Assembly: GCA_009692825.1 (NCBI GenBank)
Contig: SHYL01000006.1
Location: 1-43,327, forward strand
Reading direction: 5' to 3'
DNA length: 43,327 nt
From: Dehalococcoidia bacterium
Lineage (GTDB): Bacteria > Chloroflexota > Dehalococcoidia > SHYB01 > SHYL01
Shown here: positions 2,877-7,916 of the stretch, piece after piece
Layout of the letters: each line of letters opens with the position of its first letter
Numbering within the stretch: position 1 is the stretch's first letter
Position numbers and translations under genes: made by a program
The notes under the pieces: generated by a model
Seen by the model: only the letters and a program-made list of their open reading frames with translations
Database searches by the model: none
Told to the model about the DNA's origin: nothing

Positions 2877-3761
2877 CTAGTCTTTGTGCTTGAATGTGCT
2901 TCTCAGAATATCCATGAACCACATGACCGGCTTAGACAATGTTTTCCCGTGCAGAGTTACAGTTCCAACCTGATCTACAGGCATAAGAGTCCCAAGATTG
3001 ATCACGCCAACTTTATCTCTATCTTCGTGTTCTATACTTAGGCGCGGTCCCACAGAGATTCCCATGCCCAAAGCTACGTAGCGCTTTATCATATCCATAC
3101 CGTCTAACTCCATAACTATTTCATAGTTAAGGCCTTTTCGCTTGAACTCTTCCTCCAGCATCGTCCTAGTGTACGTTCCGCGGCCCATCAAAATCAGAGG
3201 CCACTCGGCAATCTGGTCAAGCCTGGTGATCTGCTGCTTAAGCAATGGATGCTGCGCAGGGGTAATAATCACGCGTTCATAAGGAAATAGCCCTTCGAAA
3301 TCAAAATCTCGTTTGCGCTCATGCCCGGGAAGTATGCCTACATCAGCCTCGCCATCAGAAAGCATCTGTAAGATTTCGGCGCGCGTGCCTGAGCGCACGA
3401 TCAACTTAACGTGAGGGTGCTCTTCGATAAATTTCTTCGATACACTTAGCAGGGCATGCGAAATGATTTCATACGTGGAGCCAATCCGGACCGGGCCCTG
3501 TTCTTCAGCAGATGCCGTTTTCGCAGCAAGGCCATCTATACCCTGAAGCAAAGGCTCAACAAGCTCCATCAGTTTGATAGCTGCAGAAGTAGGCTGAAGC
3601 GGACGCTTAACCCTGTCAAACAGCAGGACGCCGAGTTCATCCTCAAGCTTCTTGATGTGCATTGTTACGGTTGGTTGGCCAAGTCGAAGCTGCTTAGCTG
3701 CTTTAGAAACGCTTTTAAGTCTCCCGACCGCATGAAAGCTTTTCAGTTCTCTGATTTCCAT
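2877..3761 (-). CDS. LysR-family transcriptional regulator
   Basis: A LysR-type regulator of ~294 aa. Residues 1-60 form the winged helix-turn-helix (SVSKAAKQLRLGQPTVTMHIKK, then LEDELGVLLFDR). From about residue 90 comes a periplasmic-binding-protein-like effector domain (VRIGSTYEI, ADVGILPG, GMGISVGPR). The effector is not predictable from sequence, though the fold resembles CysB/CbbR-type members. The ORF track starts at a GTG at 3767; the ATG at 3761 is preferred because AGGTG lies just upstream, although that spacing is short and the start stays uncertain. It is divergent from a 54-aa ORF, and the shared 115-bp intergenic region contains a T-N11-A LysR box. That arrangement is typical of a LysR regulator controlling the adjacent divergent gene. 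Confidence 0.93.
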   Translation of the reverse strand: MEIRELKSFHAVGRLKSVSKAAKQLRLGQPTVTMHIKKLEDELGVLLFDRVKRPLQPTSAAIKLMELVEPLLQGIDGLAAKTASAEEQGPVRIGSTYEIISHALLSVSKKFIEEHPHVKLIVRSGTRAEILQMLSDGEADVGILPGHERKRDFDFEGLFPYERVIITPAQHPLLKQQITRLDQIAEWPLILMGRGTYTRTMLEEEFKRKGLNYEIVMELDGMDMIKRYVALGMGISVGPRLSIEHEDRDKVGVINLGTLMPVDQVGTVTLHGKTLSKPVMWFMDILRSTFKHKD

Positions 3762-3808
3762 ACTCACCTGCTATATCAGAAATATATATAGTGTTTATTA
3801 GTTCATAT

Positions 3809-3830
3809 CTATTGACATGATAGTATCTAT
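3809..3830. promoter_or_regulatory. Candidate LysR (T-N11-A) operator
   Basis: CTAT-N7-ATAG at 3809-3823 is an inverted repeat containing the T-N11-A core typical of LysR boxes. It is followed, sharing the ATAG half, by ATAG-TAT-CTAT at 3820-3830. The box overlaps the -35 element of the forward promoter. It sits between the lysR gene and the divergent 54-aa ORF, so it could serve autoregulation or control of the small gene. The assignment rests on motif and position only. Confidence 0.55.
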
Positions 3831-3840
3831 AAACGACAAT
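3812..3840 (+). promoter_or_regulatory. Sigma70-type promoter for the 54-aa ORF
   Basis: A perfect TTGACA (3812-3817) is followed after 17 bp by GACAAT (3835-3840, four of six consensus bases). Transcription would begin about 30 bp upstream of the AAAGGAGGGG ribosome binding site of the small ORF. The -35 is embedded in the LysR inverted repeat, so regulator binding should affect polymerase access. Confidence 0.6.
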
Positions 3841-3875
3841 TAAGTCAAATCTCAAAGAAAGGAGGGGTTCAACAA

Positions 3876-4040
3876 ATGTTCAAAGAACTCTTGACTCAGA
3901 TAAACAAGTCTCGCAAGTCGGAGCTCGAAGCCTACCTGATGGATATCCATCGAATGGGCTTACAGGGAGCTCCTTCATTAGAAGATGCGCGCAAAGACTA
4001 CATCAAAAGTCGCGATCTAATGACAATTAAGATCATCTAA
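3876..4040 (+). CDS. 54-aa protein of unknown function, divergent from lysR
   Basis: This ORF is too short for the track. It starts at ATG 3876, ten or fewer bases after a near-perfect Shine-Dalgarno (AAAGGAGGGG), and ends at TAA 4038-4040. The 54-aa product begins MFKELLTQINKSRKSELEAY and is charged and predicted helical, with no membrane segment, signal peptide or cysteine. It is followed within 6 bp by a strong hairpin terminator and preceded by a TTGACA promoter overlapping a LysR box. It therefore forms a complete single-gene unit facing its likely regulator. I do not recognise the family. A DNA- or protein-binding peptide is possible, but nothing in the sequence proves it. Confidence 0.75.
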   Translation: MFKELLTQINKSRKSELEAYLMDIHRMGLQGAPSLEDARKDYIKSRDLMTIKII

Positions 4041-4045
4041 AAACC

Positions 4046-4084
4046 AATTCCCGCTCGCTGAAAAGTGAGTGGGAATTGTTTTAT
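4046..4084. terminator. Bidirectional Rho-independent terminator
   Basis: A 13-bp stem (AATTCCCGCTCGC with GTGAGTGGGAATT, two G-U pairs) and a 6-nt loop are followed by GTTTTAT on the plus strand. On the minus strand the same hairpin is followed by GGTTTTTAG. It can end both the small ORF (stop 4040) and the btu-cob operon (stop 4130). Confidence 0.85.
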
Positions 4085-4129
4085 GTAGAAGTTCACGAAA
4101 AACGTTCGCATCCCTAATAATTTCCAAAC

Positions 4130-4693
4130 TCAAAACTCCATGCCCGGTTGAGCCTTTATTCCCTGGTCCCTGTAAGGATGCTTGATTTCTCGCATCTCAG
4201 TGACGAGATCTGCATAATCTATAAGCTCCTGCGGGGCTCCGCCGCCCGTAATGATCACATGCATCATGGGTTTCCGTTTTTTCAAGGTCTCAATCACTTC
4301 TTCGACTTTTATCCAGTCATATTTGAGCGGGTAAGTAAATTCATCAAGAATAATTATGTCTTCCTTGCCCTCTAAGATGGCATTTTTGCATTTTTCCCAT
4401 TGAGCCCTAGCTATTTCGCTCGTGTTATCTATGTCTTTAGACTTCCACGTGAACCCGTCCCCCATTGCCTCTATCGTTATGTTTAGTTTCTTGGCAGCCC
4501 TGTGCTCTCCAAACATCGCCCCTGTGTGCTTAAGAAACTAAAACATGTGCACATTCATATCGCGACCCCAAGCTCTGAACAGAACCCCAAGTGCAGCTGA
4601 AGTTTTCCCCTTCCCGTTCCCGGTATTTATGATTACAAGGCCTTTTTTAGTCCGAGGCCCCTTAACCTGCTGATGTTCATGTTCCTCTGTCAT
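4130..4693 (-). pseudogene. cobO: Corrinoid adenosyltransferase (CobO/BtuR) interrupted by in-frame TAG
   Basis: ATP:cob(I)alamin adenosyltransferase of the CobA/CobO/BtuR family, which attaches the adenosyl group to imported or synthesised corrinoids. Reading from ATG 4693 (preceded by AGGTGAG) gives 187 codons, the normal length. The P-loop [12 protein letters not shown] lies at residues ~23-34, and the LDEFTYPLKYDW and HVIITGGGAPQELIDYADL family blocks follow. Codon 52 (4538-4540 on the plus strand) is TAG, exactly where the family has Q in a QFLK motif, so a single C-to-T change explains it. The ORF-track entry 4130-4516 is only the downstream restart and lacks the P-loop. There is no other frame damage. 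It is the last gene of the riboswitch-controlled cobalamin operon, 24 bp after btuD. It could be a nonsense mutation, a base error in the assembly, or amber readthrough. Confidence 0.88.
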
Positions 4694-4717: not shown

Positions 4718-5536
4718 CTAATTGTTTGCTTGTGGAATCTGGCGTATCACGCTTAACGCCAGTGAATTGATAACCGAATCTGTATAGACGTTGACCTCCA
4801 CACCGAAAGCCAACGCTATATTCTCGTACGTAAGCACATCCTTTGGAGTTCCGAAGGCCAGCATGCTGCCGCGGTTCAGAATCAGGAGTTTATCGCAATA
4901 TCTGGCAGCTAGCGAAATATCGTGGATTGCGGCTATTGCACTCATGCCTGAAGATGTTAGGCCCTTCACTATCTGAAACAGCTTAAGCTGGTGACTAATA
5001 TCCAGGTTGGCTGTGGGCTCATCCAAAAGCATAACTCTGGGCTGCTGTGAAAGTGCCCTTGCTAAAAAGACTCGCTGGCGCTCGCCCCCTGATAGAGTAG
5101 CCATAGTCCTGTCCATAAATTGCTCTGTATCCGTTGCACGCATGGCTCCCAGGGCAATTTTCTTATCGAGCGTACTTTCTACTTGCAGTCTGCCCATAAA
5201 CGGATAACGCCCCATCATGACTATTTCAAAGCAGGTGAAGCCGAATGTAAAACCTGGAACCTGAGAGATTAGTGCAACCTTTTTTGCAACCTCCTTGACA
5301 CTCATGTCAGAAATTGAGGCCCCGTCAATCAATACAGAGCCTGACTTCGGCTTTAGAATGCCCGCCATCAACCGGAGCAACGTTGTTTTACCAGCTCCAT
5401 TGGGGCCTATGACACCCAGCAGTTCACCTGGCGAGATCGTGATGGAAACCTCGTTCAAAAGACGTTTACTTTCGACTTCAAAAGTTAGATGTGAAGCATT
5501 CAGTGTTTCTGTTGATTTCTCAACGTGGATATTCAT
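4718..5536 (-). CDS. btuD: Cobalamin/iron-siderophore type ABC transporter ATPase
   Basis: ATP-binding subunit (272 aa) of a FecCD/BtuCD-type importer, which powers uptake through the BtuC permease on the inner face of the membrane. Visible motifs are Walker A GPNGAGKTTL (residues ~43-52), the signature LSGGERQRVFLARAL, Walker B VMLLDEPTANLD and the H-loop AAIHDISLAARYCD. ATG 5536 overlaps the btuF stop as ATGA, so the two are translationally coupled. Siderophore and cobalamin ATPases cannot be separated by motif. The upstream cobalamin riboswitch and the downstream cobO decide for corrinoids. Residues 1-10 look like a variable N-terminal extension. Confidence 0.93.
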   Translation of the reverse strand: MNIHVEKSTETLNASHLTFEVESKRLLNEVSITISPGELLGVIGPNGAGKTTLLRLMAGILKPKSGSVLIDGASISDMSVKEVAKKVALISQVPGFTFGFTCFEIVMMGRYPFMGRLQVESTLDKKIALGAMRATDTEQFMDRTMATLSGGERQRVFLARALSQQPRVMLLDEPTANLDISHQLKLFQIVKGLTSSGMSAIAAIHDISLAARYCDKLLILNRGSMLAFGTPKDVLTYENIALAFGVEVNVYTDSVINSLALSVIRQIPQANN

Positions 5537-6561
5537 CTCGGAAAACTGAACTCCTGGTATTGTTTATCTTTAAGCTCAGGCCAGATAATTTTCGCCGTCT
5601 CCTCTGCGCCACGAAGATTCCAAAAGGAAAGTGTGGTGAAATACCTGGGAACCGCAACATAAATCCTATTGTTTTTTACCGCCGGTACTTCCGCAAGCAC
5701 CTTGTTGGTCCGCAATTTCTGTATGAACTCACTCGCGCTGGGCTCAGGTTCCGTAACAAGAATCACGTCTGGTGACATAGCAATTACGCTCTCCAGACTT
5801 ATGATGGGGTTATGCTCAAGACCAGCCTCTGACGCCAGGTTGACGGCTCCAGCCATTTCTATGATTTCACCTTCGGTCGAGTCCTTGCCAGCTGTGTAAA
5901 TTTTGTCTGAAAATGAAACGAGTGAAATAACACGCGGTTTTACTCCCGTCTTGCCTTTGACAAACTCTGATAACTCTTTACTCCTATTTGTTACTTCGAC
6001 AGCAAACGCGAGTGCGCGTTGCTCCTCTCCGTAAATGTATCCCATCAAAAGAATGTCATTAACACGGCCATCAAAATGGTTGTTTAGCTCAGTCTGAACA
6101 ACCAGGATACCGACATTATTCAGTGATGCTACCAACTCTGGTTTGGAGTAAGCGCTCACGATCACTATGTCCGGATTGAAAGATGTAATTCTTTCCGGGT
6201 CTCGAGTGACAACCGGAAGGTCCTTGGACATCTTAGCTACGTTGGAGTACTCATCTTTTTTAGTAAATTCACCCACTGCAACGACTCTTTGCGCAGGAAC
6301 CAATGCATAGGTAACTTCATCATGGCCAAGGGAAACCGTAAGTATCCGCTGGGGTTTGGACGGGATAGTAACTTTGCCGTTAAGAACTTCGACAGTCCGC
6401 GGCCAGCCGTGGTTATCCGGGTCAACGATTCCTTTAACCGCCGCGAATGGGTTACTTGATGCAACCGCAGTAGGGACAGTTCTTGAATCACCGCATGCAG
6501 ATGACCCAAGGGAAGCGAAAATCAAAATTGCAGCCAATGACAGTTTCAGTACGTTAAACAT
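5533..6561 (-). CDS. btuF: Cobalamin-binding lipoprotein of ABC importer (BtuF-like)
   Basis: Extracellular substrate-binding protein (342 aa) of the class III helical-backbone fold, expected to deliver corrinoids to BtuCD. The N-terminus is a lipoprotein signal peptide with lipobox SSAC (Cys ~23), so the mature protein is membrane-anchored. This is followed by a TonB-independent FecB/BtuF-like domain: RILTVSLGHDEVTYAL, FNPDIVIVSAYSKPE, AGAVNLASEAG and MSPDVILVTEP. The start has an appropriate GGAGAAT upstream. It lies 9 bp after btuC and overlaps btuD by 4 bp. Binding of iron-siderophores is the alternative, disfavoured by the riboswitch. Confidence 0.92.
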   Translation of the reverse strand: MFNVLKLSLAAILIFASLGSSACGDSRTVPTAVASSNPFAAVKGIVDPDNHGWPRTVEVLNGKVTIPSKPQRILTVSLGHDEVTYALVPAQRVVAVGEFTKKDEYSNVAKMSKDLPVVTRDPERITSFNPDIVIVSAYSKPELVASLNNVGILVVQTELNNHFDGRVNDILLMGYIYGEEQRALAFAVEVTNRSKELSEFVKGKTGVKPRVISLVSFSDKIYTAGKDSTEGEIIEMAGAVNLASEAGLEHNPIISLESVIAMSPDVILVTEPEPSASEFIQKLRTNKVLAEVPAVKNNRIYVAVPRYFTTLSFWNLRGAEETAKIIWPELKDKQYQEFSFPR

Positions 6562-6570
6562 TATTCTCCG

Positions 6571-7644
6571 TTAAAAACTTCCGGTATTACGTTTATTTGC
6601 TATCAAAAGAAACAGGAAAAATGGCGCGCCTATCAGAGAAGTGATTATCCCGACACTGAATTCCGCCGGCTCGATTATGATTCTTGCCAGTGTATCCGCA
6701 AGAATCATAAAGACAGCCCCGCCAAGCGCGCTGACGGGCATGAGAATGCGGTGGTCAGGGCCAACTACAAGCCTGATAATATGCGGCACTATCAAACCAA
6801 CAAAGGCGATAGTCCCGCTTACAGATACAGCTACACCAGTGATTAATGAAGCGAGGACAAGCAATATGGGTCTCACTATGTTCAAAGATATGCCCATGGA
6901 CCTGGCCTCATCATCCCCAATCATGAGAAGGTTTAATTCGCGTGACATCAACATAAGCAATGTTGAGCCCGTAAGAATAAAGGGAGCAGAAATTTGTACG
7001 TGTTCCCAGGTGCGCGAATCCAGTCCACCGGCAAGCCAGAAGACTATTTCCCGCAGAGAGTTAGTATCAGGGACAATAATAAGAACCGTCGAAATTATCG
7101 CCCCTAGAAAAGAGCTTACGGCTATGCCTACCAACAGGAGAGTCGACATTGAAAATCTACCCCCTATGATGGAAAGGAAGTAAACAAGGAACGCTGCACC
7201 CATAGAGCCCGCAAACCCCAAAAGTGGTTGCGCCAAATAAAAATTGCCGCTAAAACCAAGGGCAATGGACAAAACAGCGCCGGCAGCACCCCCTGCAGAA
7301 ACGCCGATTATCCCGGGGTCTGCCATTGGGTTGCGGAACAGCGCCTGCATAGTCGCTCCAGAGAGCGCCAGGGCCAAGCCGACCATGCCAGCGACGATTA
7401 TTCGCGGCAAACGTATGTAATCTATGATTCGCCTATCCGTGACTCCAACATCAACTCCAGTAGGTATACCTAAGTGACTCAAGATAACTGAAACTGTAGC
7501 TGAAAATGGAATACTGACAGGGCCCAAGCTTACCGCAATAATTACAGCAATCATGAGTGCCGCAATAAGTAAACTTAATGCTAGGGCAAGTCTTGAGACC
7601 AGCGATGTATGCTTTGAAATTTTTAGCAGGCTAACGATGCTCAC
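6571..7644 (-). CDS. btuC: Cobalamin ABC transporter permease (FecCD/BtuC family)
   Basis: Membrane permease of the FecCD family with about ten hydrophobic helices; typical blocks are RLPRIIVAGMVGLALALSGA, MADPGIIGVSAGG, GTIAFVGLIVPHIIRL and LGGAVFMILADTLAR. The track starts at TTG 7701, but GTG 7644 is better: GGGAGG stands 5 nt before it, family homology begins soon after, and the GGGAGG is paired in a local hairpin (7650-7675) that would serve as a translational switch. This gives 357 aa, a usual length. It is the first gene of btuC-btuF-btuD-cobO and lies downstream of the cobalamin riboswitch. Confidence 0.92.
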   Translation of the reverse strand: MSIVSLLKISKHTSLVSRLALALSLLIAALMIAVIIAVSLGPVSIPFSATVSVILSHLGIPTGVDVGVTDRRIIDYIRLPRIIVAGMVGLALALSGATMQALFRNPMADPGIIGVSAGGAAGAVLSIALGFSGNFYLAQPLLGFAGSMGAAFLVYFLSIIGGRFSMSTLLLVGIAVSSFLGAIISTVLIIVPDTNSLREIVFWLAGGLDSRTWEHVQISAPFILTGSTLLMLMSRELNLLMIGDDEARSMGISLNIVRPILLVLASLITGVAVSVSGTIAFVGLIVPHIIRLVVGPDHRILMPVSALGGAVFMILADTLARIIIEPAEFSVGIITSLIGAPFFLFLLIANKRNTGSF

Positions 7645-7649
7645 AACAA

Positions 7650-7675
7650 CCTCCCAGCCACGGCGCACTGGGAAG
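7650..7675 (-). promoter_or_regulatory. Hairpin sequestering the btuC ribosome binding site
   Basis: On the minus strand CTTCCCAG and CTGGGAGG form an 8-bp stem (one G-U) around a 10-nt loop. The 3' arm contains GGGAGG, the Shine-Dalgarno of GTG 7644. This is the natural off-state element of a translation-controlling riboswitch whose aptamer lies about 70 nt upstream. It also supports GTG 7644 over the track's TTG 7701. Confidence 0.7.
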
Positions 7676-7745
7676 CTAAAGCGAAAACCCAATTTAATCA
7701 AGGTTTTATAGCTTTGCTCTGTGCGGCGCAGAGGCAGCCAAATTT

Positions 7746-7899
7746 TTCTGGGCAGGTCTCCTGGCTTACGGATCTTCGCTCTCAGACCCTTCCCGTCACA
7801 CCTAGGCGGACAGTAGTTTTACTGATGCGCTCCCCGAATACAGTGGCGCGACCACGGCGGATTCTAACCGCCTTCCCTATAAAGCTTTCGCACCCAGAA
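7746..7899 (-). promoter_or_regulatory. Cobalamin riboswitch (B12 element)
   Basis: The minus strand carries the B12 box AGCCAGGAGACCTGCC (complement at 7751-7766). It also has the conserved core GGGAAG...GAATCCGCC, then GCCACTGTA. Closing stem P1 is TTCTGGG with CCCAGAA (plus-strand 7893-7899 and 7746-7752). The aptamer begins ~12 nt after a TATACT -10 and precedes btuC. Cobalamin binding is expected to lower btu-cob expression. A small CTCTG-N7-CAGAG hairpin lies between the aptamer and the RBS-sequestering hairpin and may form part of the switch. Confidence 0.95.
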
Positions 7900-7910
7900 C
7901 TCGAATCGTT

Positions 7911-7916
7911 AGTATA
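7911..7916 (-). promoter_or_regulatory. -10 element of the btu-cob operon
   Basis: TATACT on the minus strand (plus strand AGTATA) lies just upstream of the riboswitch aptamer, so transcription would start around 7904. The -35 region (GTTCAT at 17-bp spacing) is weak. Confidence 0.5.

Follow-up and report, generated by a model that had tools for sequence, protein, structure and literature searches.

LysR-type regulators with very small proteins as their targets are known from few systems. VtlR, the LysR regulator of Brucella and Agrobacterium, directly activates the genes of the tiny hypothetical proteins BAB1_0914, BAB2_0512 and Atu1667, and it also controls the AbcR sRNAs (PMC7486931). In Methylomonas sp. 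DH-1 the LysR regulator WatR controls WatS1-5, smORFs of about 50 aa, of which WatS1-4 are each predicted to span the membrane once and WatS1 seems to modulate an RND pump (PMC10355033). Very short proteins are also represented by DUF1127 (PF06568), which is widespread, often below 50 aa, present several times per genome and acts by binding PhoR (PMC12501420). Here we analyzed a 43,327-nucleotide stretch of DNA from a Dehalococcoidia bacterium of the phylum Chloroflexota (the window), which by its sequence contains a small-protein gene that is paired with lysR and belongs to a protein family not described before. The proposed pair resembles VtlR in that a LysR regulator has tiny proteins as targets, but it comes from another phylum, the small gene lies divergently beside lysR and its family has no Pfam or NCBIfam match. 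The likeness to WatR and WatS lies in unannotated proteins of about 50 aa, present in several copies and linked to a LysR regulator; the window family, however, is hydrophilic and its copies occur in varied contexts, and hydropathy revealed no single transmembrane segment of the WatS kind, the GRAVY values of the ten members examined being near zero or negative, mostly negative. With DUF1127 the family shares very short proteins in several copies per genome, whereas its net charge is not consistently positive (-4.5 to +4.5 in the same ten members), and identity with DUF1127 was rejected as PF06568 matched none of 30 members in the Pfam scan. The family is also reminiscent of two short helical bacterial modules, HAAS (PF22564) and permease prefix domain 2 (NF038404). 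Homology to HAAS, prompted by a helix-G-P-EAR pattern, was rejected at an hhalign probability of 0.2%, below that of column-shuffled controls, and permease prefix domain 2 was likewise discarded, as it matched one of the 30 members, partially and with 17.2 bits against a cut-off of 35. Since no match to the VtlR-target, WatS or DUF1127 systems was obtained where this was tested, we set the family apart as undescribed.

The initial annotation had proposed, opposite lysR, a frame of 54 codons preceded by a Shine-Dalgarno sequence, and both are present where it had placed them (Table 1). When the 54-aa sequence was used as a single query only weak matches were obtained, one of which (L004) was a short ORF with the same core; further members came from reading the spacers of orthologous lysR genes, followed by iterated profile searches. 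The members are 40-65 aa long and share the core FExYYxxL, then 8-12 residues, then P(S/T)xxEARxDY. In the alignment of 30 members Tyr20 and Ala38 (window numbering) are invariant and Pro33, Glu37 and Asp41 nearly so. Against a profile built without it the window protein scored 27.9 bits (E 7.6e-8), while 20,000 shuffled sequences reached at most 12.2 bits, and a profile made from members not linked to LysR detected all seven LysR-linked ones with E values of 1e-5 to 8e-9. Scans of Pfam, NCBIfam and PHROGs gave no convincing family for the small protein, and a phage search with it gave no match. At a permissive threshold of E<=0.1 the class yielded members in 32 of 245 genomes, the weakest of these matches being at chance level. 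At E<=1e-3 one family within the class had members in 23 of 44 genomes, with as many as five copies in a genome, and in a draw of 400 genomes from the whole phylum 16 had them, two of which (G247 and G446) are marginal. Most members are remote from the window protein (15-30% identity). The window comes from an incomplete MAG that alone represents its taxonomic family here, and its comparisons use relatives from beyond that family; in pairs of related members from outside the window's genus dN/dS was 0.15-0.50, with 0.20 for the LysR-linked pair G643/G696, while one nearly identical pair had no amino-acid change and falls outside this range. Frame-disrupting substitutions, which by the initial annotation would speak against the gene, were seen in no family member found. 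The search among relatives thus shows the small gene to be real and kept at the protein level. Judged from these comparisons, positions 3876-4040 are almost certainly a genuine protein-coding gene, whose product is a member of an undescribed family that extends beyond the window's class to others of the phylum.

Table 1. Features of the lysR/small-gene region, in positions of the window
Feature	Positions	Strand	Basis and remarks
LysR-type regulator, 294 aa from ATG 3761	2877..3761	-	HTH_1 and LysR_substrate; orthologues, tree
Divergent intergenic region	3762..3875		Sequence; compared between orthologous loci
Sigma-70-like promoter TTGACA-N17-GACAAT for the small gene	3812..3840	+	10/12 consensus bases; not above chance by count
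Candidate LysR site GACATGATAGTATCTAT, core ATGATAnTA at 3817-3825	3814..3830	+	Core in 5/10 orthologous promoters; overlaps the -35
Shine-Dalgarno AGGAGG	3860..3865	+	Sequence; 10 nt 5' of the ATG of the 54-aa gene
54-aa small protein gene	3876..4040	+	ATG...TAA; member of the FExYY / P(S/T)xxEARxDY family; homologues, leave-one-out profile, dN/dS
Terminator hairpin, 15-bp stem, T run on both sides	4045..4078		Sequence, folding; probably shared with minus-strand cobO

The facing gene encodes a LysR-type regulator with clear Pfam matches to HTH_1 (PF00126, 3.8e-19) and LysR_substrate (PF03466, 8.6e-43). Because the relatives begin at MEIRELKSF, ATG 3761 is a likelier start for it than GTG 3767, and this choice gives a divergent spacer of about 114 bp. 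A locus search of genome contigs with the window LysR returned remote relatives only. The close orthologues, 14 in number, were taken at E<1e-80 from two genome sets sampled within the class, of 245 and 393 genomes and in part overlapping, plus a contig-end fragment in G156, and LysR orthologues are 49-57% identical to the window LysR. Seven of the 14 face a family member divergently, namely those of the window, G001, G156, G082, G657, G643 and G696, and in the tree these seven LysRs belong to a single clade of 11 (support 82/79). The small-gene homologues of the six relatives have intact frames and ribosome-binding-like sites. The outer neighbours of the pair vary, being cobO in the window, a HAD-like gene in G001 and ftsY in G156 and G657. 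In G167 lysR directly faces ftsY, and this order, kept as in G156 and G657 save for the small gene, suggests that the latter was lost there.

Relatives with this LysR and without the ORF, which by the initial annotation would also speak against the gene, do in part occur, as no family member faces the orthologous LysR in G700, G638, G167, G010, G068 and G096. No small ORF facing LysR was found in G700. In G010, G068 and G096 lysR is faced by another small ORF, some 46-52 aa long and with the conserved C-terminus ASVDRIVALNANLLAAA, which occupies the place of the small gene together with a terminator-like hairpin, and in G638 a 60-aa zinc-ribbon-like ORF (CPRC...CLQCG) stands in its stead; the small ORFs in G010/G068 and G638 were undetected by the family profile. 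A divergent 57-aa ORF in G009 (FEHWMSGV...) has a half-related look, and it was rejected as a member and left out of the counts because the profile fails to detect it. Conversely, many family members adjoin TetR, rimO, folD or metabolic genes and have no LysR beside them, and elsewhere in the phylum the small gene adjoins assorted metabolic genes. In family f3 of the class the small gene, with neighbours assigned by eye, is flanked by a UbiB/ABC1-like kinase gene on one side and on the other by a TetR-type gene, behind which comes an MMPL-like pump; in another arrangement rimO and scpB flank it. At the loci with the kinase and TetR genes (L113-L116) small genes also adjoin P450-like genes, and G197 carries two tandem copies. 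Synteny with lysR therefore holds as a repeated divergent pairing with the same LysR clade, which is preferential and not obligatory, since some LysR relatives lack the ORF and the family occurs without LysR. As the pairing is not universal and many members lie in other contexts, the function of the small protein does not require this LysR, and the variety of these contexts implies that it is not tied to one pathway. Distant LysR paralogues face CoA-transferase, MetE-like, ferredoxin, substrate-binding-protein-like and Rieske-type genes (named by eye), so that the small gene sits in the usual position of a LysR target. Its repeated divergent pairing with the same LysR clade suggests that it is probably the target of the adjacent LysR.

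The initial annotation had further proposed a TTGACA promoter with an overlapping T-N11-A operator. The promoter lies where it was put, with a 17-nt spacer and a weak -10, GACAAT (3835-3840), behind TTGACA at 3812-3817, but promoter-like sites are no commoner in the small-gene region than in shuffled sequence (3 found against 4.3 expected). The T-N11-A operator was rejected, as such pairs occur in the lysR/small-gene spacer at chance level (15 against a shuffled mean of 12.5, not significant). We noticed instead a different shared motif, ATGATAnTA, overlapping the -35, which occurs in five of ten orthologous spacers and is missing from the other half, against 0.14 expected by local shuffling and a maximum of 3 in 2000 shuffles, a count that is optimistic because the motif was chosen by inspecting the same spacers. 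An unbiased word search also placed the ten spacers above every one of 200 local shuffles for words of width 11, 15 and 17. The window contains two copies of the motif in 43 kb, one of them being that over the -35. LysR would most likely control the small-gene promoter by binding ATGATAnTA over its -35, and control of the small gene by LysR appears likely from the arrangement of the locus. It could be argued that the small gene is independent and lies beside lysR by chance, with a constitutive promoter of its own, and that LysR regulates itself or distant genes. The consensus -35, the operator motif in only half of the loci and the many family members with no LysR beside them would fit such an arrangement. 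We nevertheless hold it to be unlikely, though the strongest of the alternatives, as half of the close LysR orthologues keep the pair although the outer genes differ, chance adjacency is very unlikely when few genomes carry the family, and the LysR paralogues face probable targets in the same arrangement.

Downstream of the small gene a terminator had been described as dedicated to it. The hairpin is indeed present there, with 7 GC pairs in its stem and a folding energy of -27 kcal/mol, but a T run also flanks it on the minus-strand side (GGTTTTTAG). Since T runs flank both sides and the small gene and cobO converge at this point, the hairpin is probably a bidirectional terminator common to both genes, and the term dedicated is not supported. 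Terminator-like sites as a class were not above shuffles in the small-gene region (2 found against 3.0 expected), and as the counts of the promoter, terminator and T-N11-A signals do not exceed shuffles these signals alone prove nothing. The converging cobO (cob(I)yrinic acid a,c-diamide adenosyltransferase; 4127-4693, minus strand) has an in-frame TAG at codon 52 (VHMF*FLKHTG). Amber recoding was rejected as its explanation, because TAG ends 16 of 37 longer ORFs of the window; TAG being an ordinary stop in the window genome, that of cobO stems either from a nonsense mutation or from an error in the assembly. Further on the minus strand (4718-7912) a cobalamin riboswitch (7734-7912) lies upstream of genes for an ABC permease, a binding protein and an ATPase, apparently a corrinoid uptake operon with cobO at its end.

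AlphaFold2 modelled the window protein as two helices with a mean pLDDT of 63, and a better-covered relative with a two-helix core at a pLDDT of about 85; a Foldseek search with the better model and a PDB sequence profile search gave nothing significant. None of the ten members examined contains Cys. From their composition the small proteins look soluble, without marked hydrophobicity or conserved charge, and since they look soluble, are Cys-free and vary in charge we infer that a conserved nucleic-acid-binding or membrane role is disfavoured and protein-protein contact favoured. The small protein, a predicted two-helix hairpin, would then most likely act as an adaptor or inhibitor, attaching to some other protein and tuning the activity of that protein in the presence of the LysR ligand; as the initial annotation had suggested, it may be a small regulatory or effector protein. 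Taken together, we favour with fair though limited confidence the reading that the window carries a real gene of an undescribed family, controlled by LysR, whose product is a soluble two-helix adaptor or inhibitor acting by protein contact. A broader idea, that phylum-wide two-helix micro-regulators plug into different one-component regulators (LysR and TetR clades) as protein-level effectors or feedback partners, is doubtful at present. It is still less probable that the partner of the small protein is LysR itself, with which it would form a feedback pair in the role of co-regulator or anti-activator, and that the TetR-linked copies do likewise for TetR; adjacency to LysR in one clade and the apparent order of small gene and TetR beside the MMPL-like pump in family f3 point that way, but many copies have no adjoining regulator, and LysR orthologues persist without the small gene in G167 and G700. 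That the functional product is an RNA, a LysR-controlled sRNA of the kind VtlR controls in AbcR with the ORF incidental, is scarcely credible: the short predicted transcript, the strong terminator and the precedent of a LysR regulator of an sRNA (PMC7486931) would suit it, but amino-acid-level conservation across classes with dN/dS of 0.15-0.5, the Shine-Dalgarno sites of the relatives and the lack of an Rfam match within the small-gene interval argue against it.

Under the favoured reading of a LysR-controlled adaptor or inhibitor, the window pair is a further, independent example beside the few LysR regulators known to target tiny proteins. It also brings to light a family of conserved, very short proteins from a large and mostly uncultured phylum, which the curated libraries that were searched appear to have missed, probably owing to the small size of its members (40-65 aa). 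The pairing with LysR offers a handle on the function of this family, as it joins one regulator, one promoter motif and what would be a single small target.
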